Of a DNA stretch of 64,000 nucleotides, positions 235 to 63,900 are shown one piece after another; the stretch's first letter is position 1; each line of letters opens with the position of its first letter. The notes beneath the pieces were generated by a model. It saw only the letters and a program-made list of their open reading frames with translations, was not told the DNA's origin and searched no databases. Source of the DNA: Acholoe squamosa (lineage: Eukaryota > Annelida > Polychaeta > Phyllodocida > Polynoidae); assembly GCA_949317995.1 (NCBI GenBank), contig OX439050.1, positions 22,894,061 to 22,958,060 on the forward strand, read 5' to 3'. A program made the position numbers and the translations under genes.

Positions 235-454
235 AACCCTGTAATGGCCGCTGATGCAGTAATGCATCATGCCCATTGGTCGCCATGATCAATGAATGCA
301 GCCCCTGACAAGTTATAGCTGCATTCATACATCATGCCGACCCTTCAGGGTCAATATACCTGATCCCGGAAGGTCGGCATGATGCTCCAATGAAGTGCTG
401 GCGAGCAATCTCACCAGCACTTCATTGGTGCATCGGCGGCCCTTAAAGGGTTAA
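235..454. mobile_element. piggyBac-like foldback MITE, copy 1
   Basis: The right end reads CGGCCCTTAAAGGGTTAA; the left end (CAACCCTGTAATGGCCGCTG) is a diverged inverted match. Inside are two hairpins: a B module (GAATGCAGCCC...GGGCTGCATTC type, somewhat eroded) and an A module (CCAATGAAGTGCTGGCGAG paired with its complement). TTAA next to CCC...GGG ends is the piggyBac signature, so a non-autonomous piggyBac-derived element is inferred. It has no coding capacity. Confidence 0.75.
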
Positions 455-539
455 TCCACTCACCCCAGTCTCATATTTCACAACCAATCCTCTGACTCTT
501 TTCACTATGTTGTGTAACAAAAAGTAATGCGCTACACTT

Positions 540-700
540 GTACAGTGATAGACAAAGGGAAAGGAAGGGTGTGACTGTGAGTGAGTAAGCAAAAAAAAAA
601 ATATGTGGGTGAGTGAGTGACTGGCGGATAAAGGGGGAATGAATGAGTTAGTGAGTGAGCGAGAAAGTGATTGAAGGTGGAGAAAGGGTGGGAGAAAGGC
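540..700. repeat. GTGA-rich simple repeat
   Basis: Degenerate GTGA/GAGT tetranucleotides with an A12 run near 590. It resembles the tail of the (GTGA)n SINE seen at 4222-4400, but no SINE body is recognisable beside it. Confidence 0.6.
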
Positions 701-1176
701 GAGTGTGAACAAGGGAACCAGACATACTTTTATGCTAAGGTCTCGACTAATGTGCCAATCTCGAATAACAGTGTGTGTACAGGGGGTTTGAAAAAAAAAC
801 CACCAAGCACTGAGGCTCCGTCTCACATAGGCGCCTTGGAGACATTGGTATTGAAATATTGCAAATAGTCAAGCTCTTGGGTGCTTACAGGGTAAACATA
901 GTCTAATTGTAAACACCGGCATAAATATTTAGATTCAGTCTTTTCTTTTTTACTTTTGGAAAATCCTTACAGTGGAATATATATCACATAATGGACTAAA
1001 TTAAATCAAATGATACCATCATCTGCATGTATTTCAATGATATTAACATGTTGAAATATTTGTTGATCCCTTACACACATATACATACTACTTAGCCATA
1101 AAGGCAACTGTATACACACAAACATAGCTCACATAACTTCTCAAGTACCCCCTCCTTCCTAACTCAGACCTTTGAC

Positions 1177-1458
1177 TAACCCTTTAAGGGTTACACAGTG
1201 CATTAATGCATCATGTCCATTGGTGGTTATGATGCATGAATGTAGCCTGGCGAGTAAGTTACCAGTGCTGCATTGATGCATCATGCTAACCCTCTGGGGT
1301 GGAGGCATCCATAAAGGGTCGGCATGATGCACCAATGCAGTGATGGCTAGTATACTCGTCAGTCCTGCATTTCTGCATCATGACTGGAGGTACCATGCAC
1401 CCTTATAGGGCATGCATGTACATAACCCCGAGGTCATCCAGTGGTCCTTAAAGGGTTA
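1177..1458. mobile_element. piggyBac-like foldback MITE, copy 2
   Basis: Begins TAACCCTTTAAGGG and ends CCTTAAAGGGTTA, with a B module followed by a diverged A module between. The GGTCGGCATGATGC linker typical of the family separates them. It is somewhat mutated, so an older copy. Confidence 0.75.
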
Positions 1459-1767
1459 GAGCCCAGGAGAAGATATGCTGGGGTTATCAGTTGCCCCCTG
1501 ACCTGCCCTGGATACCAGTTATCACACTGCCCCTTGGCAACCCTCTCAGACTGCCCCTGAGACTATAGGTCTCTCTGATATTTCACAACAACTCATCACA
1601 TGGCGGCTACAGTTGGTGCTGCCCTATCACAATCTTCCCTGAGGGGTGCTTACAAGGCGGAGTGGTAGAGCACAAGTCGTCTTATGTTCTCCATCAAGCC
1701 ATCCAGGGGATTGTATGTTAGCCAAGGTACCTTCCACTTGAATACAGTCTGTTCTGGTTAGGCGGAT

Positions 1768-1930
1768 CAGGGGCGTAGGAAAAGGGGGGGGGGGCAGGGG
1801 GGCCTGCCCCCCCCAGCTGGGCCCCCCAATAATGAAGAGGTTCCCTATATAAGCCTATATAAAAATATAGCGACCCCCCCAACCGAGACCCCTGGGTCCC
1901 CCCAATAAAAATTTGCTTCCTACGCCCCTG
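1768..1930. mobile_element. hAT-like MITE, CAGGGGCGTAGGAA family
   Basis: Termini CAGGGGCGTAGGAA and TTCCTACGCCCCTG are inverted repeats, flanked by a 5-bp duplication CGGAT (1763-1767 and 1931-1935). The interior is rich in G and C runs. CAG...CTG ends are typical of hAT elements, and 5-bp duplications occur in some hAT groups; the superfamily is inferred from the ends only. It gives a spurious minus-strand open frame. Confidence 0.8.
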
Positions 1931-1946
1931 CGGATACATAATTTAG

Positions 1947-2425
1947 GGTACAGTGTAGCTTAGCTATGGGGACAGTCAGGATAATGTGAGTGATAGGTCA
2001 CATTGTGTATTGTGCCTTAGATACAGGGGCGTAGGAAAAGGGGGGAGCAGGGGGGCAATAATGAGGAGGTTCCCTATATAAGCCTATGTAAAAATATAGT
2101 AGCCCCCCCCAACCGAGGCCCCTGCCCCCCCCCCCTATAAAAATTTGCTTCCTACACCCCTGCTTAGATATTAGGACAGTCATGGCATAGTACAGTGTAC
2201 CTTAGCTATGAGGGCAGTCATGACATTGCAGTGTACCTCAGCTATGAAGACAGCCATGCCACTCTACAGTGTGTCTCAGCTATGAGGACAGTCATGGCAT
2301 TCTACAGTGTGTCCTAGCTATGTGGACAGCCATGTCACTGTACAGTGTGTTTCAGCTATGAGGAAATGCTGCTGTCCAGAGTGCCTTAGCTATGAGGACA
2401 GCCATGGCATTCTACAATGTGCTTT
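1947..2425. repeat. 38-bp minisatellite interrupted by a MITE
   Basis: Imperfect units of about 38 bp built on CTTAGCTATGAGGACAGTC and a TACAGTGTG box. The clearest are at 2160-2425. The array starts before the MITE at 2024-2162, so the MITE inserted into an existing array. Confidence 0.75.
2024..2162. mobile_element. hAT-like MITE with 8-bp duplication
   Basis: Ends CAGGGGCGTAGGAA and TTCCTACACCCCTG. The flanks carry an 8-bp direct repeat CTTAGATA (2016-2023, 2163-2170), the classical hAT length, whereas three other family members show 5 bp. At 139 bp it is shorter than copies at 23 and 38 kb. Confidence 0.8.
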
Positions 2426-3317: not shown

Positions 3318-3521
3318 TTAACCCGTTATGGACCACTAATGCATTCATGCACCATGCCCATTGGTCGGCATAATGCATGAAAGCAGACCCTACGGAAATG
3401 GTACACTCTGCATGATGCTCCAATGAGGTGCCGGTGAGTATTCTCGGCAGCACTTCATTGGTGCATCATGCCGACCAATGGGCATGATGCACACATGCAG
3501 CAGCAGACCTTAAAGGGTTAG
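3318..3521. mobile_element. piggyBac-like foldback MITE, copy 3
   Basis: TTAACCCGTTATGG at the left and CCTTAAAGGGTTA at the right. One half of the B module is deleted; the A module (CCAATGAGGTGCCGG...) remains. Downstream to 3880 a GC-richer patch has GGCCGCCATTA and an inverted CCAAT box (ATTGG) near 3812, but no clear exon. Confidence 0.75.
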
Positions 3522-3897
3522 AGGTTATGGCCACACCTCCAGCATTCTTACAGCTGCTATATTAGCTCGTTACGTTCACCGAGTATTTGTCAATAAATGT
3601 TTATTTTCACTCACCGCCTGCGCTACACAGGTAGACACACATGTATATAGACAGCTTAGGGCGTGTGTAAGTGTGTGTCGGTTGGGGGAGGGGTCGGCCA
3701 CTCATATAGCTCACATAGCCATTATCAGCTGGGGGCCGCCATTAGACCCCGACGCCACTATGACTAACACCTTCAGCCCCCGACTCGGCAGTATATGCCA
3801 GGGATGCCTCCCATTGGTCAATAATACAATAGCCATGTGCCGTATATGGTATGAGGTGCCAGTTCAGCATTAACATACATTTACCAACAAAATGTAT

Positions 3898-4221: not shown

Positions 4222-4400
4222 GTGAGTGAGTAATATATGTTTAACGCCATTTCGACAACTGAGGTCATATTCATGTCGAGAACTACATTACACAATTTGA
4301 CAGGGGAATGTGTCAGTGCCCGCGCATATGTGCATCACACACATCCCGAGGGGATAGGAAAGAGGAGAAATAGACCCTTTTAAGTGGGCTAGGGAGGCCC
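4222..4400 (-). mobile_element. (GTGA)n-tailed SINE-like element
   Basis: Body contains TTTAACGCCATTTCG and GGGGATAGGAAAGAGGAGA. It matches, in inverse orientation, the element at 23431-23614, which has a 10-bp target duplication. The tail is at the lower coordinate, so the element reads on the minus strand. No A or B box is obvious in the body. Confidence 0.7.
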
Positions 4401-4488: not shown

Positions 4489-4490
<2 letters not shown>

Positions 4491-7334: not shown

Positions 7335-7598
7335 TTAAACCCTTAAAAGGCCCCCAGCAGGTCTATGGTCCTGAGGCATCATGATGCACCAATGATGTGC
7401 TTCTCTCCAGCAGGACATTGGTGCATCATGCTAACCCTTTGGGCACATTATCAGTCCTGTATTCAGGGCCAATATTACACATCATAAATGCAGCGCTGGT
7501 GATTTACATTTTACTTACCAGGGCTGCATTCATGCATCATAGGGACTAAGGGACATCATGTATTAATGCCGTATACTGCCCTTACAGTTAAAGGGTTA
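7335..7598. mobile_element. piggyBac-like foldback MITE, copy 4
   Basis: TTAAACCCTTAAAAGG at the left, AGTTAAAGGGTTAA at the right. An eroded A module (CACCAATGATGTGCTTC...) precedes a B module with GCATTCATGCATCAT. Confidence 0.75.
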
Positions 7599-7869
7599 AA
7601 CCACTGCAGCCTCTACCTCCAAACACATCATAAATACTTTCAACTATTTATAGCCATAATCTGATGTTGGACCCTATAGCAGGGAATGCTGAATACATAG
7701 CATTTATGCTAACTCTCAATTGCTAACTCTCAATTGACCTGTCAACTTTAAGATGGACCCTATGTATGGCAATGCCTCTACCCCACTTCATTCTTGATGC
7801 TATGCACTGGGAAGAAAAATCTACTACCACGGGGTACCACAATATTAATTATATAGGGAAAACACATGG

Positions 7870-8360: not shown

Positions 8361-8592
8361 TTTAAATCTTAAAGTGCTGCATTGTGCATTAAGCCATCAT
8401 GTCCATTTGTAAAGATGATGTGTGAATGCAGCATTGGCAGGAAACATGCCAGGACTGCATCACGCTGAACCTCCAGGGTTGATACACTCCTGACGGATTG
8501 GTATAATTCACTACTGGCGAGTAGACTCATCAGCATTGGGTTTGTGCATCATGACGACAATGGAACATGAACCTAGAGGCATAAGATGGTCA
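8361..8592. mobile_element. Degenerate piggyBac-like MITE, copy 5
   Basis: CCTTTAAATCTTAAAG start, then CATCATGTCCATTTG and GCATTGGCAGG...CCAGGACTGCAT remnants of the B module. It directly abuts the better-preserved copy 6. Confidence 0.55.
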
Positions 8593-8853
8593 TTAACCCT
8601 GTAAGGGCCATTGCTACATTAAAACATCATGCCCATTGGTCAGCATGATTCACCAATAAAGTGCTGGCGGGACTGCTCGCCAGCACTTCATTGGAGCATC
8701 ATGCCGGGAGTTTGTGTATTTATCCCGTAGGTCGGCATGATGTATGAGTGTAGCCCTGGCAAGTTACTCGCCAGGGCTGCATTCATGCATCATGACGACC
8801 AATGGGCATGATGCATTAATGCATTAGCGGTCCTTAAAGGATTAAAGGGTTAA
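8593..8853. mobile_element. piggyBac-like foldback MITE, copy 6 (reference)
   Basis: One of the best copies: TTAACCCTGTAAGGGCC start, A hairpin (AAGTGCTGGCGGG...CTCGCCAGCACTT), linker GTCGGCATGATG, B hairpin (AGCCCTGGCAAG...CTCGCCAGGGCT), then GCATTAATGCATTAGCGG and terminal AAAGGGTTAA. At 261 bp it shows the full A-B architecture. Confidence 0.8.
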
Positions 8854-11777: not shown

Positions 11778-11967
11778 TTAAACATTTAAGGGCCGCTGAT
11801 GCATTAATGCCCATTGGTCGTCATGATGCACCACTGTATCAACCCCGTAGGGTCGGCATGATGCTCCAATGAAGTGCTGGCGAGCAGTCTCGCCAGCACT
11901 TCATTGGTGCATCATGACGACTGATGGACATGATGCACTCCTGCATCAGCGGCCTTTAAAGGGTTAA
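11778..11967. mobile_element. piggyBac-like foldback MITE, copy 7 (A only)
   Basis: Compact 190-bp version. Termini TTAAACATTTAAGGGCCGC and GCGGCCTTTAAAGGGTTAA surround one near-perfect A hairpin (CCAATGAAGTGCTGGCGAG, 4-nt CAGT loop, then its complement). The B module is absent. Confidence 0.8.
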
Positions 11968-12859: not shown

Positions 12860-13116
12860 TTAACCCTTTAAGGGCTGCTTATGCAGGAGTGCATCATGCC
12901 TATTGGTCGTCATGATGCACTGGCGAGTCTGCTCACCAGCACTTCATTGGAGCATCATTACGACCCTCCGGGGCATGTATAAATTCTGTAAGGCCAGCAT
13001 GATGCTTGAATGTAGCCCTGGCGAGTTATTCAGTTATTTGCCAGGGCTGCATTAATGCATCATGACGACCAATGGGTATGATGCATTAATGCATTAGTGG
13101 CCCCTGAGAGGATTAA
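12860..13116. mobile_element. piggyBac-like foldback MITE, copy 8
   Basis: TTAACCCTTTAAGGGCTGC start and GAGAGGATTAA end. A shortened A module is followed by a B module with a small duplicated GTTATTCAGTTATT loop. Confidence 0.78.
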
Positions 13117-13479: not shown

Positions 13480-13636
13480 TCTCCTGTTCCCTTGTCATAA
13501 TGCACGAACGCACTGGAGCATCAATACCGGCCATCCAGGACTGGATGAAACCCATAAGGCTGTCTTATGCAGCATGAATGCAGGCCTGGTGAGTAGACGC
13601 ACCAGGGCTTTATGCATTGTGACGACCAAAGTGTAC
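13480..13636. mobile_element. Fragment of piggyBac-like MITE
   Basis: CATGAATGCAGGCCTGGTGAG ... CACCAGGGCTTTATGCAT is a decayed B module followed by GTGACGACC. The termini are not recognisable. Confidence 0.45.
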
Positions 13637-15370: not shown

Positions 15371-15405
15371 CAAGGTCTGTGTGACCAGAATGATGTCGGT
15401 ATATA

Positions 15406-17226
15406 GGTATCGGACCACCAAAACATTCTGCACTATAATTTAATGTAACTCATGCACCCGTAAAAGTGGAATTTCACCTTTCAAACACTCCAAATCACTC
15501 AAAATCATGAAGAGGCACATTTTCCCCCTCTCTGGGTGTCAGATCCAGACGTCGTTCACCAACCCAGTTTTTCTGTATGTGCATATGTTTGAACCCATCC
15601 CCATTTTGGCCTATTCTGCACACAATTAGTGATTATTTCCAACCTTTTTTTAAATGAATATTTTGGGATCCTAGACAAAGGAGCTGTCCCTTGTACCCCA
15701 TATATTCTGAATCACAACAGGTTAAACATTTTATCTATGCTTTATTTAAAAGTTTGCAATGATTTTGAACTCTAATATAGACCAATCACAGCCCTCCAAG
15801 TCCTAAATCCGTACATCTCAGTGTATTACCGGAAGTGACGTCATCATCAATAGTGGAACGATACCTTAAAGGAAGCAGTATTTTATAATTACCTGGGAAA
15901 TATGTCTCTCACATGTCCTTATTCCCAACCCAGTACAAAAAGTCCCTCAGAAATACATTTCAGCTTCTCTACAGGGGGTGTCTTAATGCCTCGGCTTACC
16001 GAGAATAACCTTGATTTTTCCTCATTTTCACCCCTCCGTCAAATATCTGCTTACCACAAAGGAACCGATGAGCACAATGACCTGAGAATTGGTATCCTTA
16101 TTGCCAAAGAGTTATTCTGCATGGTACAAATGCCAGGTTTGGGGTTTCAGTTTTTATTTCTCAGAAATCTACGCTAATATAGCAGAGGAAAATAATGAAA
16201 ATCTATCAAAAATCACAATTTTTTGTCAAAAAACTGATTTTTCAGAGGCTTTACCTTGCTCAGAATACACTGTACTGTCCATATTACATCTCCCAATACT
16301 GTTAACGAAATCTGTTCAAAATTTCATGTATATTTGAGCATTTTTAATGGTTTAATGGACTCTAATGGGGTTCAATACCGAGGTGGCTCGGAATCTTCCG
16401 AAGCTGCGTAAGCCCACATTTAAGCCCTATAGCTCCAATATCCAAGCACCTATGGGTCAAAATAGGACATATACTGACCAGTTATTGTGATTTTTATACA
16501 AAATCTTGATTATTTGAATATCTACACTTCTAAACCCACACTGGGAGGCATATGGGTGATTGGAGCTGAAAATTAGTGAAATTCCAGTTCTCTCCGCAAC
16601 CTTAAAACCCACATTTTCCTCCATTTTTGACAGTTTCCCTGCATATAAGGACAAAATAAGGGTTTATTTTTCATGAATAACCAATTCCTGATAAAATTGA
16701 TAGCTTTTGGTTCATGTTTAGCCTGTATTTAACTATGTCCATTCCATAGGCCTATGGTTCTCTTAAGGTATCGGACCACCAAAACATTCTGCACTATAAT
16801 TTAATGTAACTCATGCACCCGTAAAAGTGGAATTTCACCTTTCAAACACTCCAAATCACTCAAAATCATGAAGAGGCACATTTTCCCCCTCTCTGGGTGT
16901 CAGATCCAGACGTCGTTCACCAACCCAGTTTTTCTGTATGTGCATATGTTTGAACCCATCCCCATTTTGGCCTATTCTGCACACAATTAGTGATTATTTC
17001 CAACCTTTTTTTAAATGAATATTTTGGGATCCTAGACAAAGGAGCTGTCCCTTGTACCCCATATATTCTGAATCACAACAGGTTAAACATTTTATCTATG
17101 CTTTATTTAAAAGTTTGCAATGATTTTGAACTCTAATATAGACCAATCACAGCCCTCCAAGTCCTAAATCCGTACATCTCAGTGTATTACCGGAAGTGAC
17201 GTCATCATCAATAGTGGAACGATACC
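15406..17226. mobile_element. Terminal-direct-repeat element (TRIM-like)
   Basis: Two 460-bp direct repeats (15406-15865 and 16767-17226) that I read as identical enclose 901 bp. Each repeat begins GGTATCGG and ends CGATACC. The whole unit is flanked by TATA on both sides (15402-15405, 17227-17230), which fits a 4-bp target duplication. No reverse transcriptase, gag or clear primer-binding site is visible inside, and the short open frames at 15902-16337 match no family I know. Each repeat carries CCGGAAGTGACGTCA (ETS plus CRE motif) near its 3' end, a plausible promoter. Lack of divergence implies recent insertion or gene conversion. Alternatives are a DNA transposon with long direct repeats, or two copies of a shorter element. 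Confidence 0.7.
15829..15843 (+). promoter_or_regulatory. ETS-CRE composite motif in the left repeat
   Basis: CCGGAAGT overlaps TGACGTCA, repeated at 17190-17204 in the other terminal repeat. This motif pairing is common in TATA-less promoters; function here is inferred. Confidence 0.35.
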
Positions 17227-17933
17227 TATAGGGAAAAAGAGCCATTCCTGTAAGGAGGTGGCCATCTTGAATTTACTTATGTAACTGCCCCCGACGGCCA
17301 TTTTGGATCTGGCAGAGGATTGTGGGTAATCTCTTATCTTCCCTTCCACCCACAGAGGACAATGGGAATTGATAAGACTGATAAGCTGCCCCTGCCTCTA
17401 TCTAAATCACCTTAAGTACCGGTCCATTGTTTTAGGTGTGAATGGAGGGGATTAGCCTGATCGGGAGACAATGGCTTGGTTCTACTCAGCCTGGATTATA
17501 TGTGCCCTTTAAGAAAACTTTTAAATTTTAATTTCTCTTATATTTGAAATATTAAGTCTATATAAAGCTTATGTTGTTTAAGTTTAAAGTATTTGCTATC
17601 CACAGGTATAGATTTTTAGAATATAGCTTCATATAGACTATTAGGAAGGGACAGCCAAAGGTAATTTGTTTGGTACTAGCAATTGCTCTGTCCCGTATAG
17701 GCCTAGGTGATCGGGCATTTTGCCCCCTGTAGACACTGGTCTATAGGTAGATATCACCTAGGGTAATGTAATCGGTGTGACCAGAATGGAGGGGGGAGGG
17801 CATTATGGATTTGTTGGCTGACAGCTAGACTTCCTGCCACCTGGCCGGCTATGAATGAAAATTATCTAAGATTCCTGTTCACTATGAAACAACTTTTGGA
17901 TCTACCAGGCATCCGTGTGAAAATAAGTTGATA
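17227..17933. other. Intergenic, nothing firmly recognised
   Basis: Contains GGCCATCTTGAA and GGCCATTTTGGATC near 17259-17305. These resemble promoter-proximal YY1-type words, but no adjoining exon was found. Confidence 0.4.
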
Positions 17934-22707: not shown

Positions 22708-23029
22708 GGCCCTCCAACTGTAGAATATGGAAATAAACCTACAGTAGGAACAATAGGGAGCAGAGCCAGGTGGAGTATAATGACAAATAACCTCCAAAAA
22801 TCTAGTACATATCAAGCACGCCTCTAGGACTCTAATTACTGCTGGTCAATCTAATCAACTTGGTAACCCTTTCAGGACTGTATGTATCCCTTAAGTATGT
22901 CTCCCTTTGTTTCCACGATGCACCAGTGCAGTCTTGGCAAGTATAGACTCGTCTAAGGTGCATCAGTTCATCCTGTAGCCACTCCAGGAGTGTATCAGCC
23001 CCACAGGTTGGGAATGATGCAGGGGCGTA

Positions 23030-23377
23030 GGAAAAGGGGGGGCCAGGGGGGCCCGGCCCCCCCCCCCCCAATCATGAAGGAGGTGGGGCCTGAGTATGTC
23101 TGCCCCCCCCCCCAATATTTTCCAAGAACTCATAAACACAATGGAAAAGAAGCTAAAACTTTACATCTCAAATTAGATTATTATGGTGATGTCATAGGGA
23201 AATGGGGGTCTGAGCCTAAAGTCAGATCCAAAATTTACCAAAAGTTACTTTTCTATATGAATTCTATATACGCATTATATAGACGCCATCACGCATCAGC
23301 CGACAATTCAAGGTGGTCACGACGGTGCCCCTCGCCGGGCCCCCCCCCCCAATGAAGATTTGCTTCCTACGCCTCTG
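23030..23377. mobile_element. hAT-like MITE, long form, 5-bp duplication
   Basis: 348 bp. Ends CAGGGGCGTAGGAA and TTCCTACGCCTCTG; target duplication TGATG (23025-23029, 23378-23382). The interior includes GGAGGTGGGGCCTGAGTATG and ACGCATCAGCCGACAATTC, also found in the 38312 copy. Confidence 0.85.
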
Positions 23378-23430
23378 TGATGCATGAATGTAGCCCTGGT
23401 GACTTTCTCATCAGGGCTACATTCATGACG

Positions 23431-29813: not shown

Positions 29814-29985
29814 TTAACCCTTTAGATACCGCAAATGCATTAATGCACCATGCCGACCCTACAGGGTTGGTACACTCCCGGAGAGTCGGCATGATGCTTC
29901 AATGAAGTGCTGGCCAGTTCATTGGTGCATCATGACGACCATGATGCTTGATGCACTTCGGCATCAGCGGCCCTTAAAGGGTTAA
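29814..29985. mobile_element. piggyBac-like foldback MITE, copy 9 (A only)
   Basis: TTAACCCTTTAGATACCGC start and GCGGCCCTTAAAGGGTTAA end. The A hairpin is half deleted (AAGTGCTGGCCAGTTCATTGG). Confidence 0.78.
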
Positions 29986-31345: not shown

Positions 31346-31671
31346 CAGAGGTGTAGGAAGCAAATCTTCATTGGAGGGGGCCCCACCGCTGCCACCATAA
31401 ATTGTCGGCTTGAGCGCGCTGGGGTTGATGCATCACTGTATTGGATTTATATAAAAGAATACTCCTTGATGACTTATCTTTAAACAAATCTGCCATTTTC
31501 CCTATCTTGATTACATATTTGTCCAATTTGAGTGCTGAGCTGTGGGAATCTTGTACAATTTATAGGGAGGGGGGTTGACACATTTTTTTTGGGGGGGGGC
31601 CCAGACATATTCAGGCCCCACCTCCTCTGTGATTGGGGGGCCCGGGCCCCCCTGGCCCCCCCCTTTTCCTA
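31346..31671. mobile_element. hAT-like MITE, reverse orientation, truncated
   Basis: CAGAGGTGTAGGAAGCAAAT start is the right end of the CAGGGGCG family inverted. The other end stops at CCTTTTCCTAC without the final GCCCCTG. The interior CCACCTCC...GGGCCC matches 23030 and 38312 inverted. Confidence 0.7.
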
Positions 31672-31744
31672 CATAAATTGTACAATTGGCAAACAGTCAT
31701 AAATTGTACAATTGGCAAACAATAAAAACTACTTCGAAGAGGGA

Positions 31745-32829: not shown

Positions 32830-33332
32830 CCCCTTTAACTCTTGATGGGCCTCACGATGTATCCAACGTCCCAGATTCCCTGGTCATCATCATGGTGTCC
32901 TCCAGATCATGAGATGCATCAACCTCATAGGGTCTGATGAATAAAAGTGGCCCTGGTGTGTTACTTACCAGGGCTGACTTGATGCAGTATGACGACCAAT
33001 GGCCCTACTCTCCAGCACTGCATTGGTGCATTGTGTAACAATCCAGAAGGATAAACATGATGATAAATTATACATGTGGGGTCTAGATTAGATCCACCAT
33101 TATCATTCTATAGCCCTACTGCCCAGCACTGCATTGGTGCATCGTGTAACAATCCAGAAGGGTAAACATGATGCTAAATTATACATGTGGGGTCTAGATT
33201 AGATCCACCATTATCATTCTATAGCCCTACTCCCCAGCACTGCATTGGTGCTGTATCGCGTTCAGGGGTATAACAAATCAGAATAAACATGATGTTCTAA
33301 TAGATTAAGGCTATACCACTTAAAGGGTTGTC
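32830..33332. mobile_element. Rearranged piggyBac-like MITE with internal tandem growth
   Basis: CCTTTAACTCTTGATGGGC at the left and CACTTAAAGGGTTG at the right, with a B module (GTGGCCCTGGTG...ACCAGGGCTGA). The A-module side is replaced by the 111-bp tandem array at 33002. Confidence 0.55.
33002..33260. repeat. 111-bp tandem repeat
   Basis: Units start at 33002, 33113 and (partial) 33224 with GCCCTACT.CCCAGCACTGC, nearly identical between the first two. A displaced piece (TCTAGATTAGATCCACC) recurs at 33389. Confidence 0.88.
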
Positions 33333-34347: not shown

Positions 34348-34640
34348 CTGATGCACTTATTGACTGCTGCCTATTGACTTTACCCTTTAAGGACTGCTGA
34401 TGCATTAATTCATCATGCCCATTGGTCGGCATGATTCACCAAGGACGTGCTGGCAAAACTGCTCGCCAGCACTTCATTGGAGTATCATGCCGACCCTACG
34501 GAGTTAATACATAAACACCCAGAGGGTCAGCATGATGCTCCGATGTTCAAAGTGCTGGCGAGCAGTCTCGCCCGCACCTCATTGACCAGTGCATCATGAC
34601 GACCAATGGCCTGATGCACTTATTGACTGCTGCCTATTGA
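34348..34640. mobile_element. piggyBac-like MITE (A-A) between 30-bp direct repeats
   Basis: The element runs from about 34379 (TACCCTTTAAGGACTGC) and has two A-type hairpins (at 34447-34480 and 34551-34590). Its normal right terminus is missing. A perfect 30-bp direct repeat beginning CTGATGCACTTATTGACTGC lies at 34348-34377 and 34611-34640. Confidence 0.7.
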
Positions 34641-35446: not shown

Positions 35447-35575
35447 TAGTCGACATGATGCATGAATGCAGCCCTGAAGGGTTAACTTACAGGGTCGCAG
35501 TCATGTATCATGAAACCAATGGACATGATGAATCCATACACCTTGCGGCCATTTTAGGATTAAAATTGTTAAAAA
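35447..35575. mobile_element. Fragment of piggyBac-like MITE
   Basis: GACATGATGCATGAATGCAG, CATGTATCATGAAACCAATG and GCGGCCATTTTAGGATTAA: B-module half plus right terminus, internally deleted. Confidence 0.5.
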
Positions 35576-37815: not shown

Positions 37816-38311
37816 TGTGGGTCAGTGAAAGATTCCCCAAATAAAGTTGCTAAGACATGAGACCTGCTATAATACAAAGTGCAATAAGATTCCCAGGCTA
37901 TACCGAGGTTCTGGATCGTCCAGTGGTGACGCCATTGCTTGATCTGGTACCCTGCGAGACAAGCACTGATAACAGCCCGTATGCTGGATAATAGTCTGCA
38001 ATTAAAGAAGGGAATTTCTCATTGGTTGTTAATCGCCCCCGCTACCTCCATATTGTACAAGCCAGTTTGCTGACTGGGCAGGAGCTGCTCTAGGAGTCAG
38101 AGTGAGTGACTCACGGCTCACACAGAGCTGCTCACATTTACAGGTCAATACGTCCCACTTTAATGTCCCTGGTCAAGGACCTGTATCAATCCCATATAGT
38201 GTGGGCAATAAAGTAAATCGGCAATATAGTGGAAGCAATAGGAGCCAAATGGTGGGATCTTTGGTCAACTAACTGGTCAAATTATGGAGGCAATGATAAA
38301 TAGTGATTATA
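37816..38311. other. Intergenic, nothing recognised
   Basis: Unique-looking sequence without supported features. Confidence 0.4.
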
Positions 38312-38655
38312 CAGGGGCGTAGGAAAAGGGGGGGGCCAGGGGGGCATGGGCCCCCCAATCATAAAGGAGGTTGGGCCTGAGTATGTCTGCCCCCCCAAAT
38401 TTACCAAGAATTCATAATGAATTGAACAAGAAGCTAAAACTTTCCATCTTAAATCAGTTTCATATAGTAATGGGATATAGGGAAATAGGGGCCTGGGCCT
38501 CAAACCAGATCTAAAATTCATAAAAAATTACTTTCCTATACAAATTTTATATAGGTATGTATAGGCACTATTGCGCTTGAGCCGACAATTCAAGGATGTC
38601 GAGGTGGGGCCCCCACCGGGCCCCCCCCAAAGAAGATTTGCTTCCTACGCCTCTG
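38312..38655. mobile_element. hAT-like MITE, long form, 5-bp duplication
   Basis: 344 bp. CAGGGGCGTAGGAA start and TTCCTACGCCTCTG end; target duplication TTATA (38307-38311, 38656-38660). The interior is shared with 23030-23377. Confidence 0.87.
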
Positions 38656-39207
38656 TTATAGTGTAGAAAGGAAGGCAAAAAATGCTGTTACCGAGTCCGC
38701 CTCTATAGCCTGATGCTGTGCCAAAAGGGAGGAAAAAAAGAGATGGGTTCCAGGTTACATGATCCTGTACTTTTAATAACCCATTCTTTTTATGTACTGA
38801 CTTCTACCGAATCTGTAAGATAACTGCTTAAATCATTAATCATAATGGGATATGCAAACATCTAACAATGATTCTGCCCTACCGCGCCAAAATTGTCCAC
38901 CCAAGTTAACAGAAACACACCACTTATTCACAGTCTTCCTATAGGCCGGTGTTCCCAGTGGTCTTGGTTGGTTGTAGGAGTGCAGAGAATGCAGACAGTG
39001 TTGACAAAGGCTGTCTAATGAGCAGTTCGCGAATAGTCCATGAGCCACATAGTAAACCAAACAGACCTTATGGCAAAGCGAGCACAGAGTGAGCATCGGT
39101 GTTACAGCATTACACTCCTCAAGGAACGGCATGATGCAGAAATGCAGTACTGGTGAGTACTCACCGGCACTGCATTAAGGACAAATGAACAAAATAATGC
39201 AGCCCTC
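38656..39207. other. Intergenic with MITE fragment
   Basis: The open frame 39132-38836 (-) is Cys/His-rich (LCSLCHKVC, LCQHCLHSLH) but has no reliable splice signals. 39127-39175 is a piggyBac-like A/B module fragment (GGCATGATGCAGAAATGCAG). Confidence 0.35.
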
Positions 39208-39401
39208 AGCCCTTTAACGGCCGCCGATGCATCATGTCCATTGATTGTCATGATGCACCAATGAAGCACTTCATTGGAGCATCATGCAGACCCTCTGGGA
39301 GTGTATTGACCCTGTAGGATGGGCATAATGCATGAATGGAACCCTGGCGAGTTACTTGCCAGGGCTGCATCATGAAGACCAATGGGCCCTTGAAGGGTTA
39401 A
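39208..39401. mobile_element. piggyBac-like foldback MITE, copy 10
   Basis: CAGCCCTTTAACGGCCGCCG start, A module lacking its stem centre, B module intact (CCCTGGCGAGTTACTTGCCAGGG, with a few changes), end CCCTTGAAGGGTTAA. Confidence 0.75.
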
Positions 39402-40264: not shown

Positions 40265-40446
40265 GTTGACCCGGGATCCATTATCAACCGATCAGATAAT
40301 TCTCTCTATTCACTGCAGATTTTTTTGGGTACATTATGTAACACATGGTACCCATCATGCTGGTTGTTATCAGTGCTTATCTTACCAGGTGCCAGATCAG
40401 GCAGTGGCGGACCCACACAGCGTCCATACTAAACCCTATACAGCAC
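40265..40446. repeat. Dispersed repeat, copy a
   Basis: Aligns over about 180 bp with 52682-52863 (both contain TTTTTTGGGTACATTATGTAAC and GGTACCCAT.ATGCTGGTT). Type unknown. Confidence 0.75.
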
Positions 40447-40556
40447 TAACCATTATTATGACGACCACTGGATATACAGCATTAACCATTATTATGACGA
40501 CCACTGGATATACAGCATTAACCATTATTATGACGACCACTGGATATACAGCATTA
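40443..40556. repeat. 36-bp tandem repeat
   Basis: About three units of CATTAACCATTATTATGACG plus ACCACTGGATATACAG. The core ATGACGACCA.TGG is the MITE's subterminal word, so the array probably grew from a MITE fragment (40140-40260). Confidence 0.85.
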
Positions 40557-40558
40557 TC

Positions 40559-40733
40559 TATTCAATGGCCGCTAATGCATTAATGCATCATACCGACCTT
40601 ACAGGGTCGATACACACACTCCTGGAGGGTCGGCATGGTGCTCCAATGAAGTGACTCGCCAGCACTACATTGGTGCATCATGATGACCAATGGACACGAT
40701 GCACTCCTGCATCAGCGGCCCTTCAAGGGTTAA
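40559..40733. mobile_element. piggyBac-like foldback MITE, copy 11 (A only)
   Basis: Left terminus lost to TTCAATGGCCGCTAATGC; right end GCGGCCCTTCAAGGGTTAA. A module shortened. Confidence 0.72.
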
Positions 40734-40891
40734 CACACCATGCGACCTCAAAGGGTTAAGTATTCAATCAACGCTGTCAACACCAGCCCATCCCAGTCCT
40801 GTTCTGGGAGCCGCTCCTCCGTCCGTGAGCTGCTCTGTCCTCATGAACTATACAGAACTCAAAATACACCTAAGGTCTCTACAGGCCCAAC

Positions 40892-41423: not shown

Positions 41424-42975
41424 ATGGGTCTACATACAGTCTATACAGGCCTACCTGTCACACACGGCTGTGTCTACAGTCTATACAGGCCTACCTGTCA
41501 CACACAGCTGTGTCTACACTCTATACAGGCCTACCTGTCACACACAGCTGTGTCTACAGTCTATACAGGCCTACCTGTCACACACACATCTGTGTCTACA
41601 TACAGTCTATACAGGCCTACCTGCCACACACAGCTGTGTCTACAGTCTATACAGGCCTACCTGTCACACACAGCTGTGTCTACACTCTATACAGGCCTAC
41701 CTGTCACACACGGCTGTGTCTACAGTCTATACACGCCTACCTGTCACACACAGCTGTGTCTACAGTCTATACAGGCCTACCTGTCACACACACATCTGTG
41801 TCTACATACAGTCTATACAGGCCTACCTGCCACACACGGCTGTGTCTACAGTCTATACAGGCCTACCTGTCACACACAGCTGTGTCTACAGTCTATACAG
41901 GCCTACCTGTCACACACACATCTGTGTCTACATACAGTCTATACAGGCCTACCTGCCACACACAGCTGTGTCTACAGTCTATAAGGCCTACCTGCCACAC
42001 ACATCTGTGTCTACATACAGTCTATACAGGCCTACCTGTCACACACAGCTGTGTCTACAGTCTATACAGGCCTACCTGTCACACACAGTTGTGTCTACAG
42101 TCTATACAGGCCTACCTGTCACACACAGCTGTGTCTACAGTCTATACAGGCCTACCTGTCACACACAGCTGTGTCTACAGTCTATACAGGCCTACCTGTC
42201 ACACACAGCTGTGTCTACAGTCTATACAGGCCTACCTGCCACACACAGCTGTGTCTACATACAGTCTATACAGGCCTACCTGTCACACACAGCTGTGTCT
42301 ACAGTCTATACATGCCTACCTGTCACACACAGCTGTGTCTACAGTCTATACAAGCCTACCTGCCACACACAGCTGTGTCTACATACAGTCTATCCAGGCC
42401 TACCTGTCACACACAGCTGTGTCTACAGTCTATACAGGCCTACATGCCACACACAGCCGTGTCTACATACAGTCTATACAGACCTACCTGTCACACACAG
42501 CTGTGTCTACATACAGTCTATCCAAGCCTACCTGTCACACACAGCTGTGTCTACATACAGTCTATACAGTCCTACCTGTCACACACAGCTGTGTCTATAT
42601 ACAGTATATACAGGCCTACCTGTCACACACAGCTGTGTCTACAGTCTATACAGGCCTACCTGTCACACACAGTTGTGTCTACAGTCTATACAGGCCTACC
42701 TGTCACACAGCTGTGTCTACAGTCTATACAGTCCTACCTGTCACACACATCTGTGTCTACAGTCTATACAGGCCTACCTGTCACACAGCTGCATGTACAT
42801 AGTCTGTACAGCCCTATCTTTCACACAGCTGTGTATACAGTCTACACAGGCCTACCTGTCACACACAGCTGTGTCTACGGTCTATATAGGCCTACCTGTC
42901 ACACACAGCTGTGTCAACAGTCTATACAGGCCTACCTGTCACACACAGCTGTGTCTACAGTCTATAGAGTCCTAC
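41424..42975. repeat. 40-bp minisatellite, about 38 units
   Basis: Unit TGTCTACAGTCTATACAGGC then CTACCTGTCACACACAGCTG (40 bp), with 44-bp variants carrying TACATACAG. Each unit includes the palindrome ACACAGCTGTGT. Since 40 is not a multiple of 3 and the unit lacks stops in any plus frame, all three plus frames stay open. The apparent 634-residue frame 41248-43152 is therefore not evidence of a gene. Confidence 0.95.
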
Positions 42976-45300: not shown

Positions 45301-46609
45301 TGTTGATGATGATGATTTGACCCCACTCTGGTATGTAGGCCAAAGTCACTAGGGCTGGGGTTACTAGGTTCTGGGTCATTAAAATCTGTGTCGGGGTTGA
45401 TCTCCTGACGTCCACCAGCTTTTATATCAGAGAACGTGCATATGCCCTTTCAAGAAATTCATATTCTTTTCATCTATATGTTCAGCAATTCTGCCCCCCC
45501 TCCCCATTTCAATCTCATCCGGTCTCTCTAATAACTCCTGCATCTTTCACCCACTCCAATATCAGTATCTTATGTAGAGATATTGGAGTGGAATGATCTT
45601 ATTGTTACAGGGATAACCCCCCCCCCCCCCGCAGTGCCTACCAGGTTCCCTAGTATGTGTTACTGAAAGCATTGTCTATGGGAAGCGTGTAACAGGCCAC
45701 CCCCCTCTACCCCCCCCCTTTAAAGTAGGCTGCTTTGTGTGTTCAGTGTTGATTCATATAGAAAATTAGGTGGTTTATGGAACTGTGGTATGCCTTTATC
45801 AGGTTGATACCAGATAGTAAGAAGGAACCAACCAAACCAGAAAATTCTGCTGATCCAAAATTCTTGGTCTTGATTCTCAGAAATTGATCAAAATTACTCA
45901 AAAATGAGGTTTGATGATGAAAATATTTTGAAAATGTACAAAAATAATTTTGAAAAATGTTGGAACTCTTTATAGATACAACACATAAATCAAAGTTCAT
46001 ATCCAATCTACATATCCAAATATTTGCCTATCTCTCAATCTGGCAAGGACTGTGTCTGTGCATCGCTGTCTATCCAACATACTGCCTATCCCTTAGTCTA
46101 CCTATCACTCATACTGCCGATGTCTTGAATTCAAAGCACCTTGAGTTAAGTAAGGCTATCCCCAAAAGGCATAAAGGCTAAAGCTGACTCCTCACCATAA
46201 ATAATCCTCTCTGTGCCTACTGCCCTTAGTCTACCTATCCTCAATCTGCCAATCATTCAGTTTACCTATCCCTCATGGTGACTATCCCTCAGGCCCTCAT
46301 GTCTACTCTATATTGTTCATCTGAGCCCTAATGTTTAACAGTGCATTCCTTATCATGTCTACTTTTTTAAATCTACAGGTATACCTTAATAATGCCTATC
46401 ATAAAGCCTGTCTATCCCTCATGGTGCCTATCACTCATGCTTACTTTACATATCACTCAGCCTCTTGAATTACCATGCTTATCTTTATATGCCTCACCAT
46501 GCCTATCATTATGCTAGCTTTCTATCCAACTTGCTTCACATCCCTCTTGATGTCTATTCCTCTCTTCCTATCCCCCATGCTGCACATCACTCATGCTATA
46601 CCACTTGGC

Positions 46610-47700: not shown

Positions 47701-49096
47701 AGAGTACTTGTAAGGTGAGCATTATTTAAAGGAGACATGGATGTTGGTAATAAACCAGTTTCACTAGTCACAATCACAAGGGGGAACCCCTGTAGGTTAG
47801 CCAGCTAGGAGGGCTAGTCACTCATCTAGCCCTATAACCCTATGCAATCAATATGGAGAAAGAGACACCTCTCAGAGATGAGCCTTAATCTGGTAGAAGA
47901 AATGTCCCCTCACCTTAAAAATTACAGCTACATAGGGAGAAAATGCTCATCTACCTATCCCTGTGATATTAGGGCATTATCTTTAGCCAAAATCTATCTA
48001 GACTTAGATAAATATGAGTGACCTTCCAATTTTGAGAGCTCAGAAAAGGGGGCAGAAGGGGGTGCATGGGGGTGGTGTTGGTGGTCATAGCAAACCACAA
48101 GACAGGTCCCTTGGGGGCATTAGGCCAATTAGATATAGATTATCTCACCACGGAGGAGTGTGTTAATGGTTATCTCAGGCCTGGGTAGGGGTGCTGTCTT
48201 TCATGTTTATTATCTCTCCTCTGGTGTCCACCACAGTAATGACAGGTGACAATTACCCTACTCTGACCACCCCCCTTTTCCTTCGGAATCACCCCTCCAG
48301 TGGTGCCCCTGTAACTGGGCCAAAATGGTAAGGTCAACACTAGTCACCATGAGGGGTAGGTAAAATGAATGATAGGCAGATTGAGGATAGGTAGACTAAT
48401 GGAATGTACAGAGAAAGTTAGGTACAAAGGTAAGAGGTAAACCTTGGTCCATTAAGCCTTTTGAGGGAAAACCTGATTAAACTCTAGATTTCAAGAGAGA
48501 GGTATTAATAATTATGAGTGATAGGTACACTAAGGGATAGGCAGAACCATGCAAAGGCAGCAGTTATCAGGTTGAGAGATAGGAAGACATCAGGATATGT
48601 AGATTGAGGTACTGACTTTGATTAGCATGTTGCATTTATAAAAAGTCCCAATTATTTTCAATATTACCTTTTTACATTGTTAAAAATATTCTCATCATCA
48701 AACCTCATTTTTAGGTACTTTCAGTCAATTTCTGAGAATCAAGATCACAAATTTTGGATTCAGCAGGATTTTTTTGGTATAGGTGGTACCTTGTTTGCAT
48801 TTAATATCAGTCTGATAAAGATTATTTGCATCTCCATAAACACCCTTATCTTACATAGGACTCAATACTGAACATAAAAGAGAGCCTACTTTTAAGGGGG
48901 GGAGGGGGGTGGTCTATACTATAGGACTCTACATCGTAGGGAACCTATACTATCCTTGACAGCAGTGAGTCAGTCTAGGGATTCCCAAACGTCCTGTCTC
49001 TACGCGTTTGTCACCATGGTAACAGGGCTTAACCTGCAACATAGCTGCCCGTTGGGACTCAAAACATCAACTTTTTATTCCAGCTTCACATTCCTT

Positions 49097-49215
49097 GGTA
49101 GTCATAATGAAGCAGAGGGTATCCTACTCGCCAGCACTGCATTGGTGCATCATTATTATTCGGTCATGCATCATGACTACTAATGGCATGATACATTACT
49201 GCAATATGCGGCATA
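49097..49215. mobile_element. Fragment of piggyBac-like MITE
   Basis: CTCGCCAGCACTGCATTGGTGC half A module, then GGCATGATACATTACTGCA. A second decayed piece lies at 49330-49480. Confidence 0.45.
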
Positions 49216-49798
49216 GTGAGGACCATGAATGAGAGGAGTTATGGAAACCATACAGGTCAAAACCATAAGGGCTGCACACAGGTATATATAGTGTGGAAGC
49301 ATTTTACTCGCCTTAGTATAGATCAATAACCTATTGTTGGTATGATTCATCAATGTAGCCCCATGGAGAGTTGCATTCATGCATCATGTTAAACTTAAAG
49401 TATTGATGCATTCCCAAAAGGTTGTATGGTGCAGCAATATGGGATCGCCAGGTTGCATCAATTTGGCGTATCATGATGTAAAGGGAAGATGACGCCTACA
49501 ATATGCATCACCATGCCTCTATAGGAGGTGGGGGGGGGGCTTGGCTTATCTCCTGTAAAATGCAGCAGATGGAAAGCCATGAGCAACAGAGCAACTAAAA
49601 ACAATCACTGCTAAAAAGGGTGACTATAAAACAAAGTCAAACAAAATTGGGTCACTCTGTTCCGTTCCAGTCTCATCACCGGAAGTAGACGTCAAGTCAT
49701 GGACGTAGTCACGTGAAGGCTGATAGTCATGTGATCTGGGCTGGTTACCTGGTTACCGGCATGTCTCACTTCCTGTCTGCTACCTGTCTTTTTATCAT

Positions 49799-50290
49799 CA
49801 ACCCTTTAAGGGCTACAGAAGGGTTGCTGCATTCAAGCATCATGCCGACCCTGTACTTGTTGATACACTCCCTATGGCTCGCCATGATACATCAATGCGG
49901 TGCTGGTGAGTGAGTAGACCCACCAACACTGCATTGGTGCATCAAGCAGCCTTTCACGAAGGAAACAGGAAAAGGGCACGCCCCCCACCAATCACTGGAA
50001 GTTGGGCCTGAATATGTCTACCCCCCCCCCCAAAAAAAAAAAAAAAAAAAGGTGTCAAGCCTCATTATTAGATATACAAGATTCCAACACGTCAGCACTC
50101 AAATTGGACAAAGATAGGGAAAATGGCAGCAACGGATTGAGATACGCCATCTTTTGATGGTAATCTTTTATATAAATCCCATACAACCTTGCATCAACAC
50201 CAGCGAGCTCAAGCCAATAATTCACGGTGACTGGGATGGGGGCCCCCAATGAAGATTTGCTTCCTACACCTCTGCCTTTAGAGGGTTAAA
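49799..50290. mobile_element. piggyBac-like MITE carrying a hAT-like insert
   Basis: CAACCCTTTAAGGGCTAC at the left; the copy resumes after 50275 as CCTTTAGAGGGTTAA. Between them (about 49970-50275) is a CAGGAAAAGGGCACGCC...TTCCTACACCTCTG element of the CAGGGGCG family. CCTTT occurs on both sides of the insert but not flush with its left end. Confidence 0.6.
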
Positions 50291-61499: not shown

Positions 61500-61622
61500 G
61501 TTAGAAGTGGAGTTGGTTGCACAAAGACTGCTACCAGCGGGAGACCCTACGGCACGTGCCATAGGTACGTCACCCTCCACTTCCGGTTCCAAGAGGCGAG
61601 GACGCCAAGGAAGAGACGCTAA
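61500..61622 (+). CDS. Exon-like terminal ORF with basic tail
   Basis: A GC-rich frame ends FRFQEARTPRKRR and stops at 61622. A possible acceptor (GGAGGTAGCAG) lies just upstream at 61492. CACTTCCGG at 61580 could instead be an ETS promoter site. No family recognised and no partner exon found. Confidence 0.2.
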   Translation, partial: VRSGVGCTKTATSGRPYGTCHRYVTLHFRFQEARTPRKRR

Positions 61623-61870
61623 CCCAGGAGTTCAAGTCTGTTTTGTTGTTGTTGTTTTTTTTCGTGTTTTTTTTTGTCCCCATTGAGAGAGGAATGTCAA
61701 TGGATAATGACACATAAATAGGAGCCTGGGCTAAGAGCCCAGGAATAAGAGCCCCAAGTCATTGGACCTAGGCTTCCCTATAGCCCTATACCATTGAAGG
61801 GCCGCATGATTGTAAAACCACTATCTGTGTAAAGAGTCTTTTTTTCTCTAGTACTAGACCTACAGTTAGT

Positions 61871-63786
61871 AGGCCGAAATACCTGCCTGCTTACAGGCAG
61901 GATCCAACATGGGCTGGATTTTCTGATCACGTACAATTGGCATTTTTCACACTTTTGTATGCTTATAAATGCACCTATAGAATAAAAACTTTTGAACCAA
62001 TATCCTGCTTTTTGGTCCCAATTGGAAGGGAACACCATAACCTTTCAAATGCATGTACTCTCTTGCATATCCAACCATAATATTTGGATTAATTGGCTTC
62101 CAAAGTTGAAAAATTGTGAAAAAAGGCAAATTTGACGAAAAAGCAGGTTTTTTACAGCCCTGGCATATATCCCAGAGGGGTTCCAGAACCTCAAATATAG
62201 CTTTTTCTCATTGATATATCTGTTGTGTTAATGATTCAGAAGGTTTTTGGGTATTGTAGAGCATAAGTATTTGTTCGTGTAACATTCAGTGTAAAATGAC
62301 ACTCAAATGTCCATCCGACAGTAAAACTAAAACCCTCCCATATTCTAAACTAAGACAGTTAATACATTATCCTTACTCTGCTCAGAATTGAGGGGCACTA
62401 GGGTGGTTAAGCTGCCACAAAGATTTTTTTGCTGTAGCCTGAAGTCTTCCTCGTATACCAATGAGTGCATCCGTATACACATTTTTCTGTTGGATGGACA
62501 TTTTGCACTTTTGCTGTCGGAAGGACAAATTTCTTAATCTCAAAATAATGCATTTGGATGCATCCTTTATGTTTTAAATCAAGCACAGTCATCCCTTGAA
62601 CACTATTAAATAACATTTGTACCATAAGTCTCCCCATAAGTGTGTTTTTATACACTGTAATATGAAAAAAAGTGTCCAGCCGACAGATAAAGTCTGAATT
62701 TTAGGGTCATTTTAAGCTAATGCTGAGCTGAGTTGGTGGTCCATTAGGTTATGGTGATCATTATTTCTTAGAGTAGGCATGCTTCACTTAATGTAGATTG
62801 ATTTTAATGAGTATTTAAGCATTTTCTAGACAACTAGAGGGAAAATAACATTTTTGACAAGAATTTTCATTTTTTCACAAAATGGCTGAATTTCATCAGC
62901 CTATATCTCAAAGATTTTTTGAACAGTGATGTTTATTCATGAGCTTACTAAACTTGTATACTGTAAGAGCTGGTAAACAAAATTAGAAGTTTCTGTGGTG
63001 TATATATTGGTAACAAAATCATATCACTGATTAAATCTGTCAGATGGACACAAAAAGTGACAAATTGTTATCACACAGCTATAAAAATGGAACCGGTAGG
63101 GATAACTCTGTATAATTGGTGGTTCCAAGGAGCCAAGACATTGTTCTTTTAATGTAATAAAGTGATTAATTCCTTTTCTGAATTTCATATTTGGGGCCTT
63201 CTCAGGGAGATTTGTATGTCCCCAGGAAATCTGTATACAAGTCTATAGTGGCACAAACACATGGCTAGTCTGAACTAAGTACTCACTGTCAGTTCCTGGA
63301 AATTGTCCCTCCTATTCACAAACATGTAGCTTTCATGTACATCAGCTTATAATGACTGAAGCATGAGATATATCCAATAAATCTGACATGTTTATCTTGA
63401 GCTTAGATATCACTACCTCAATGGCCTCCATTGTCAACATGCTGGGGATGCTACCTGGCGTTAGCCTCCTTTTGAAACATAGGGCTAACCAACCAAGAAT
63501 AGTATAGTCTCTTTGGCACTAGGTGGCTACACCTGGCTTCAAGATGGCCGACAATGTTTTGGAGTAAGTGAGGGAGATTTGAAAATCACCTGGATTGTTA
63601 ATTATTACAAGTATTTCAAGTGCTTTGTGTATTGTGGATCTTTAGATATACATTGAGGGAAGTGTTGGTGGAAGCATTGGACCTGACAGTAAGTACTTCT
63701 GTGAGAACTGGGCACTCTGCCAATCTGAATAGACTACCAACAGACACCTTTGGATCCTGCCTGTAAGCAAGCAGGTATTTCGGCCT
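61871..63786. mobile_element. 1.9-kb segment bounded by 37-bp inverted repeats
   Basis: 61871-61907 and 63750-63786 are inverted copies, 36 of 37 identical, starting AGGCCGAAATACCTGC. Each contains the small hairpin CCTGC(C/T)TGCTTACAGGCAGG. Outside both lies CTATCTGTGTAAA (61824, 63813), but in direct orientation. The interior is AT-rich with no recognisable transposase. Either a non-autonomous transposon or two members of a short repeat in opposite orientation. Confidence 0.5.
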
Positions 63787-63854
63787 AACAGTTAGGGGTT
63801 GACCATCAAACCGCTATCTGTGTAAAAAAATAACGAGAATCTAGTCTAGCCTAA

Positions 63855-63900
63855 GCGATAGCAGTACATTGATGCATCATGGCGACACTTCGGAGTGAAT
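63855..63900. mobile_element. Fragment of piggyBac-like MITE
   Basis: GCAGTACATTGATGCATCATGGCGACACTTCGGAG resembles the junction between an A module and the linker, split here as two recognisable words. Confidence 0.35.

Follow-up and report, generated by a model that had tools for sequence, protein, structure and literature searches.

The best-described systems close to the element reported here belong to the piggyBac group. In piggyBac of Trichoplusia ni, which uses TTAA as its target, a dimer of the cysteine-rich zinc domain is reported to bind a palindrome within bp 17–33 (PMC7351741), and piggyBac ends carry CC[C/T]T (PMC2872659). MER85 is a short non-coding element of 140 bp with the same target; its 16-bp imperfect palindrome, described as essential for PGBD3 binding, lies 3 bp inside the 13-bp terminal inverted repeat (TIR) near one end (at bp 17–32 by our count), and the palindrome is present three times in PGBD3's own transposon (PMC3459987). 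The left end of piggyBat has three motif-plus-palindrome repeats, and its subterminal sequences lower activity (PMC11707139). Here we describe a family of miniature inverted-repeat transposable elements (MITEs) in a 64-kb stretch of the Acholoe squamosa genome (C16:22894061-22958060, hereafter the window; the source genome comprises 1.481 Gb in 63 contigs). We put the probability that this is an old, high-copy piggyBac-superfamily MITE, whose ends are long and compound and which is mobilized in trans, at roughly 0.87.

A full element is ~255 bp long and consists of TTAA, the tip CCCTTTAAGGGCCGC (bp 1–15), the palindrome GATGCA-nnnn-TGCATC (bp 17–32), CATGCCCATTGG, an arm hairpin of type A or B, a core of ~27 bp, the mirror-image other arm, and TTAA. 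The end signature of the family is TTAACCCTTTAAGGGCCGC together with the palindrome. Each ~50-bp terminal repeat carries a hairpin of its own and forms one arm, and the consensus of 13 window copies has the order end, hairpin A, core, hairpin B, end. No gene was seen within the element. We listed 24 copies, 19 of them obtained with a script that paired end-like matches and five (12860, 29814, 40555, 3318 and 34379, the last without its right end) added by hand; the right "end" of the L035 copy falls within an array. These copies were short (151–284 bp, for a family range of ~150–285 bp), non-coding and high-copy. Nine had the layout A-core-B in either orientation, five were A-core-A, eight had a single A, one had B only, and one formed the start of a B array. 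Hairpin A was oriented with its own end in all 14 copies with two hairpins (A-core-B and A-core-A). The simplest description is an alpha arm, made of an end and hairpin A, and a beta arm, made of an end and hairpin B, placed around the core and combined as alpha/beta or alpha/alpha. In the one-hairpin copies 29814, 40555 and 49798 the end meets the core directly, and the TGCATCATGCCGACC-like sequence at the join is what a deletion between GCATCATG repeats would leave.

Since each arm contains a nested hairpin, one strand can fold as a cloverleaf. The predicted single-strand fold of copy 8593 had an energy of -83.2 kcal/mol (z -13.2), and that of L067, a young copy on C1 near 4.372 Mb, computed as single-stranded DNA, showed one long end stem and three hairpins at -125.4 kcal/mol (z -23.6); none of 200 shuffles reached either value. 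Folding at several levels had been proposed in an earlier, sequence-only reading of the window, and both calculations agree with it.

The family stood out clearly from chance expectation. With up to 2 mismatches, the tip CCCTTTAAGGGCCGC was matched 14 times in the window against 0.05 expected (0 of 100 shuffles reached 14), and the subterminal palindrome, with up to 3 mismatches, 23 times against 0.02, in line with the TTAA ends, fixed interior and palindrome of the sequence-only reading. The stem sequence CTGGCGAG had 14 exact matches against 0.58 expected; the hairpins that the reading had built on this stem are real, and fall into two related kinds, A and B. TGCATnnATGCA occurred 42 times with at most 1 mismatch (4.25 expected); it is common to the TTAA-type end palindrome, where it occupies bp 19–30, and to the consensus hairpin B, which carries it twice. 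When TA runs were excluded, 10 of the 11 strong short-loop hairpins in the window came from this family. A BLAST search of the window with the consensus gave 18 merged loci covering 3250 bp between 235 and 49947, and none in the reversed sequence. As the merged locus 8362–8845 contains two copies, the number of copies and fragments at this threshold is 19, close to the "at least 20" first claimed. The claimed extent of 235–63900 did not hold, as the loci end at 49947 and the end-like match at 61791–61805 has no element body around it.

A genome-wide count, which the earlier reading had recommended, gave 3569 exact occurrences of the 15-mer CCCTTTAAGGGCCGC and 1 of the reversed control. We also sampled a 10-kb stretch at the 10-Mb position of each of the 18 large contigs (54–127 Mb). 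The sample contained 27 loci in 8 of the 18 stretches, amounting to 4037 of 180000 bp (2.2%), with 0 in the reversed control. Taken at face value this would extrapolate to ~150 loci per Mb and ~220000 per genome, from a small and uneven sample. L033, which overlaps L032, and L059, a duplicate of L058, were excluded from most counts. In 106 alignments of at least 100 bp, the identity to the consensus, itself built from window copies, was 78% at the median and at most 93.5%. Hence, most copies look old. Viral or prokaryotic relatives were considered and rejected: CATCATGMCGACCAATGG led to 3 viral-contig and 19 prokaryote-genome stretches and ACCCTTTAAGGRCCGC to 7 viral-contig stretches, and since the longest alignment of three window copies to these 29 loci was 32 bp, the matches were read as chance.

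The boundary of the element was determined with the inner GGGCCGCTGATGCA as sole anchor, using 23 ends from the window and the 18 stretches. This tip-side anchor was preferred because an anchor on the palindrome (110 rows) is confounded by the same motif in hairpin B. TTAA occupied positions -4 to -1 in 20, 17, 19 and 19 of the 23 ends, CCCTTTAA (bp 1–8) was matched by 18–23 ends and CCCT by 18–20, and from -5 outward no base was present in more than 12. As conservation stops at the outer TTAA, the element starts with CCC directly next to it (TTAA/CCCT), and its termini at this boundary read 5'-CC...GG-3'.

Duplication of the TTAA target was demonstrated by two copies nested in older copies. 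The right flank of copy 8593–8845 is AGGGTTAA, exactly the family-end sequence outside the inner TTAA at bp 5–8, while on the left, the flank read outward carries on inward through the older element from the same TTAA; neither flank's score was reached by any of 1500 flanks taken at other TTAA sites as controls. Removal of the insert and one TTAA restores the end of the old copy, with 28 points over a 58-base alignment; in their match to the consensus, the 27 bases to the left of the junction outscore 4988 of 5000 shuffles. Copy 40555–40733 sits in the bp 23–26 TTAA of its host copy, where each flank beats 5000 of 5000 shuffles and the left TTAA is now TTAT. The sequence-only reading had named empty sites with target duplications other than TTAA as grounds for abandoning the assignment; as far as this comparison could be run, the assignment passed it. 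Of the three copies which that reading considered best, 12860–13116 stood as given, with hairpin A partly deleted. The second, 8593–8853, is indeed a full copy that ends by homology at 8845, the bases 8846–8853 (AGGGTTAA) being a remnant of the older copy's end, and 11778–11967 belongs to the family in the one-hairpin form and in reverse orientation. In total, 5 flanks from 4 copies matched the family interior among 66 TTAA-type ends. In L047 and L075 a single flank matched the bp 5–8 site beyond all 1500 controls, on one side only. Given the copy number, self-nesting need not be a preference.

Within the subterminal palindrome, GATGCA (bp 17–22) and TGCATC (bp 27–32) were conserved in 46 in-register ends of 80; these 46 were selected by the tip and bp 27–35, a selection that favours conservation at bp 27–35. 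The spacer at bp 23–26 was TTAA in 21 of these ends, GGAG in 12 and another sequence in 13, with bp 23, 24 and 26 variable (0.53–0.90 bits) and bp 25 conserved (1.59 bits). The central dip in conservation is firm, and half-site 2 stands out only slightly. A site for a protein dimer would show such conserved halves with a variable centre between them, and the palindrome at each end is likely a transposase-binding site. A subterminal palindrome at about bp 17–33, as in piggyBac, is present here, in a register known from two relatives only. Together with the TTAA/CCCT boundary, the TTAA doubling and the 5'-CC...GG-3' termini, it upholds the earlier classification as a piggyBac-like MITE.

The resemblance to MER85 and piggyBac is one of layout and not of letters, and for MER85 it was the layout that was compared. 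MER85 differs in its short TIRs and single palindrome (PMC3459987), whereas the Acholoe MITE has the palindrome at both ends within ~50-bp terminal repeats that carry hairpins. Unlike the Acholoe MITE, piggyBac and piggyBat are autonomous, have asymmetric ends and use other palindrome letters (PMC7351741, PMC11707139). Coral CMITEs are likewise piggyBac-related, with TTAA, a conserved interior, tandem arrays and insertion composites, but they measure ~100 bp with 13–14-bp TIRs, and the word "hairpin" is absent from the main text of that paper (PMC2872659). Foldback-like elements with long TIRs also offer parallels. Galileo has internally repetitive TIRs and, by title, several transposase sites (PMC3688188, PMC3573991), but it belongs to the P-element superfamily; Tetris seeded a satellite, again by title (PMC4079207). 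The hairpin nested in each arm, as seen in the 14 two-hairpin copies and in the L067 fold, is to be taken as a likeness of shape and not of descent. Among the open-licence PMC matches listed, titles and abstract openings described no MITE whose terminal repeats each enclose a hairpin. Repbase or Dfam may already list the family. MITEs of this class are familiar, and the compound design of arms and hairpins is an unusual form of them; what sets it apart is the layered, cloverleaf-like symmetry and the likely transposase-binding palindrome at each end.

Several observations weigh against assignment to the piggyBac superfamily or against the details given above. No autonomous element was seen in the window, where 10 selected open reading frames (ORFs) had no Pfam match up to E 0.1. 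Besides the nested cases, 24 joined-flank queries against 279 kb yielded no pair of filled and empty sites: of 572 hits, 5 spanned the junction, of which 4 lay in the locus that the query came from and the other was a 70% match extending from a MITE copy into its flank. When ends were selected on half-site 1 only (50 ends), the match was 0.80 at half-site 2, 0.75 at bp 33–43 and 0.63 in the spacer. The conserved bp 25 lies within the spacer, and bp 46, 47 and 54 are as variable as the spacer itself. The ends of MER85 and piggyBac are described as asymmetric, whereas the palindrome of the Acholoe MITE is equally placed at both ends. Finally, copy 34379 has a 29-bp flank duplication at its broken side: exact repeats lie at 34349–34377 and 34612–34640, the second in place of the right end, an arrangement suggestive of a repair-type duplication and not of one at TTAA.

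The TTAA at bp 5–8, which lies inside CCCTTTAAGGG and is followed by GGGCCGC, raises the question of whether the family is instead a Kolobok-type MITE with its true start at this inner TTAA and 5'-GG. Kolobok also duplicates TTAA and is widespread in animals, but its termini are described as 5'-RR...YY-3' (PMC9587614), which the Acholoe ends do not show. Furthermore, the CCCTTTAA conservation outside the inner TTAA continues up to the outer TTAA, and copy 8593 inserted with the outer TTAA-CCC boundary. The tip-anchored test of the 23 ends led us to reject the inner TTAA as the boundary, and we consider a Kolobok origin highly improbable.

A separate question is what the hairpins represent. Hairpins A and B are related (0 of 2000 shuffles reached their alignment score), and their consensus arms differ at five positions (15, 16, 21, 24 and 25), each time on both arms and with pairing kept; the founders must thus have been nearly symmetric. 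Mispaired arm positions were 5 and 14 in A, and also 5 in B. These paired differences, together with the very stable single-strand folds, could be taken to mean that selection preserves the hairpins as functional structures of RNA or DNA, either small-RNA precursors or cruciforms used by the host. In the window set, 29 of 500 shuffles for hairpin A and 44 of 500 for hairpin B reached the observed percentage of paired positions, and 32 and 98 of 500 the covariation score; these values are borderline, and related sequences can yield them without structure. Counts of double changes in this set were null for both hairpins. We assembled larger stem sets of 64 copies for A, with all rows kept, and 47 for B, after dropping 23 of 70 rows, low-scoring ones from the tandem arrays of L035, L036 and L037. 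In B, both-arm changes numbered 60 against 42.1 in shuffled data (0 of 1000 shuffles), 35 of them paired against 25.0 (5 of 1000). In A they remained near the shuffled level, with 40 against 34.8 (134 of 1000) and 22 paired against 17.6 (132 of 1000). Without a CG to TA pair found in 17 of 44 copies of B, which in this reading is a subfamily marker, paired double changes fell to 17 against 13.2 (132 of 1000), while all double changes stood at 41 against 26.7 (0 of 1000), so that the excess does not come wholly from one pair. The remainder is what decay differences between copies or subfamilies would give. In addition, 9 of the 24 copies have only one hairpin. Selection on the hairpins thus appears improbable, and the processing into small RNAs that the earlier reading had raised finds no clear support in stem covariation. 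Hairpin symmetry looks like a property of the founder elements, and pairing is not clearly maintained after insertion.

The nested hairpins may alternatively be relics of copies that landed in or against each other's TTAA, the composite then being moved by its outer ends. Such an origin would agree with the self-insertions at bp 5–8 (8593) and bp 23–26 (40555) and the single flanks of L047 and L075, although some nesting is expected by chance at this copy number. It also has a precedent in the coral CMITE-IN, which arose by MITE insertion (PMC2872659). A half-arm of hairpin B resembles the element end, with a score reached by 0.4% of shuffles; its inner part alone was no more like the tip than chance (52% of shuffles), and a half of hairpin A could not be aligned to the end. 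With the half-arm significant and the inner part not, we rejected the idea that hairpin B is simply two ends fused together. Also in favour of relics, the hairpin centre of copy 35449 is AAGGGTTAAC. On balance, we regard relics as rather unlikely, with absorbed insertion junctions a possible source of the hairpins. Doubtful to a similar degree, and a shade more so, is the wider proposal that the ends of this piggyBac MITE lineage grew in layers by landing in their own ends. The tip CCCTTTAAGGG, the commonest end palindrome and the centre of hairpin B are all palindromes centred on TTAA or TTA, and the first step of layered growth has live examples in the copy in a bp 5–8 TTAA and the other in a bp 23–26 TTAA. 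If the proposal were true, composites carried by their outer ends would have become cloverleaf elements with several transposase sites per arm.

For the piggyBac-superfamily MITE that we favour, movement can be pictured by analogy with its described relatives. A piggyBac-type transposase supplied by an autonomous relative would grip the tip with its core, while a dimer of its C-terminal zinc domains would hold the palindrome at bp 17–32. The two ends would then be paired and cut at TTAA, and the element re-inserted at another TTAA, sometimes within a copy that is older. As for the nested hairpins, they resemble additional end-like sequence in inverted copies, and may be either extra transposase sites, as the three palindromes of PGBD3 and the three motif-palindrome repeats of the piggyBat left end suggest, or passengers.

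The copies and fragments in the window are listed in Table 1.

Table 1 Copies and fragments of the MITE family in the window.
Positions	Strand	Feature	Details
235–454	-	A-core-B copy, reversed	hairpin B ~283–342, hairpin A 381–434
1177–1455	-	A-core-B copy, reversed	extra sequence in A-side arm
3318–3520	-	copy with hairpin A	hairpin B lost
7379–7599	+	copy without left end	A-core-B-right end
8362–8592	-	older degraded copy	split at its own bp 5–8 TTAA; end resumes at 8846–8853 (AGGGTTAA)
8593–8845	+	full TTAA-bounded copy, nested in older copy	hairpin A 8643–8704, hairpin B 8730–8800
8846–8853	-	AGGGTTAA, outer tip of older copy	severed by the 8593 insertion
11778–11967	-	one-hairpin copy	top-scoring hairpin A (11852–11921)
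12860–13116	+	full copy	hairpin A partly deleted, hairpin B 12998–13064
13511–13629	.	fragment surrounding a hairpin B
22969–23021	.	short fragment	consensus BLAST only
23378–23427	+	solo hairpin B
29814–29985	-	one-hairpin TTAA-bounded copy	hairpin A internally deleted, B lost at GCATCATG-type repeat
32914–33002	+	hairpin B fragment	adjoins 111-bp tandem array 33002–33251, which includes part of hairpin A
34379–34618	+	A-core-A copy	right end missing
35449–35563	+	fragment: hairpin B and right end	unusual hairpin centre AAGGGTTAAC
39111–39387	+	copy 39206–39401 after B fragment 39127–39176	hairpin A loop lost, B kept
40510–40554	-	inner part of older copy	split at bp 23–26 TTAA; overlaps 36-bp array 40437–40556; tip side at 40734–40759
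40555–40733	-	one-hairpin copy, nested in older copy	hairpin B lost at GCATCATG-type repeat
40734–40759	-	tip side of older copy	beyond the 40555 insertion
49124–49203	.	fragment	one hairpin A arm and subterminal repeat
49798–49960	-	degraded one-hairpin copy	BLAST body 49826–49947

Units matching the MITE have also expanded into tandem arrays, at L035:1576-2676, L036:1822-2354, L037:708-912, L034:841-1265, L044:9780-10000 and, in the window, 33002–33251 and 40437–40556. Array sizes include 77 bp x 14.4, 47 bp x 11.5 and 29 bp x 7.1; the arrays of L035, L036 and L037 overlap hairpin B (consensus 123–200), and across the window and the 18 stretches the MITE was matched by 4 of 63 array rows.

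The window itself contains no N and has the character of eukaryotic nuclear DNA, with abundant simple and tandem repeats and one tRNA gene. The tRNA was the sole match in an Rfam scan of the window at gathering scores, which gave no known structured RNA family for the MITE. Five ORFs of at least 150 aa were present, four of them within one tandem repeat. Open frames cross a 40-bp minisatellite of 37.5 copies at 41435–42975, and the long ORFs listed there therefore look like a repeat artefact. A direct duplication of 470 bp (15405–15874 and 16766–17235) has 99.4% identity, far closer than the MITE copies are among themselves. An inverted pair of ~600 bp with 72% identity, ~2 kb apart (45694–46284 and 48341–48915), perhaps represents the arms of another old transposon. 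A second dispersed repeat family lies at 23014–23381, 31588–31672 and 38306–38659, and one of its copies translates with GRRKRGGQGGPAPP. Outside the window, the minus strand of L037 carries, from ~1388 downward, what looks like a coding exon (DDFNVDQFVVECRRRVPLENLRNDL...) with a GT splice site after it, and a MITE end lies shortly before the exon, at 1501–1515; judged by eye only, we take this exon to resemble the Golgi complex subunit COG2.

For a gene-delivery tool in such wide use as piggyBac, it is of practical interest to know which parts of an end are required, which help and which inhibit. The Acholoe family, which makes up ~2% of the sampled sequence and in which half-sites are conserved, spacers fall into two main types and extra hairpins are optional, amounts to a large natural experiment on end design. 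It also offers examples of hairpin units multiplied into tandem arrays and of MITEs inserted into ends of their own family, and the palindrome at bp 17–32 gives the family a concrete, testable mechanism.

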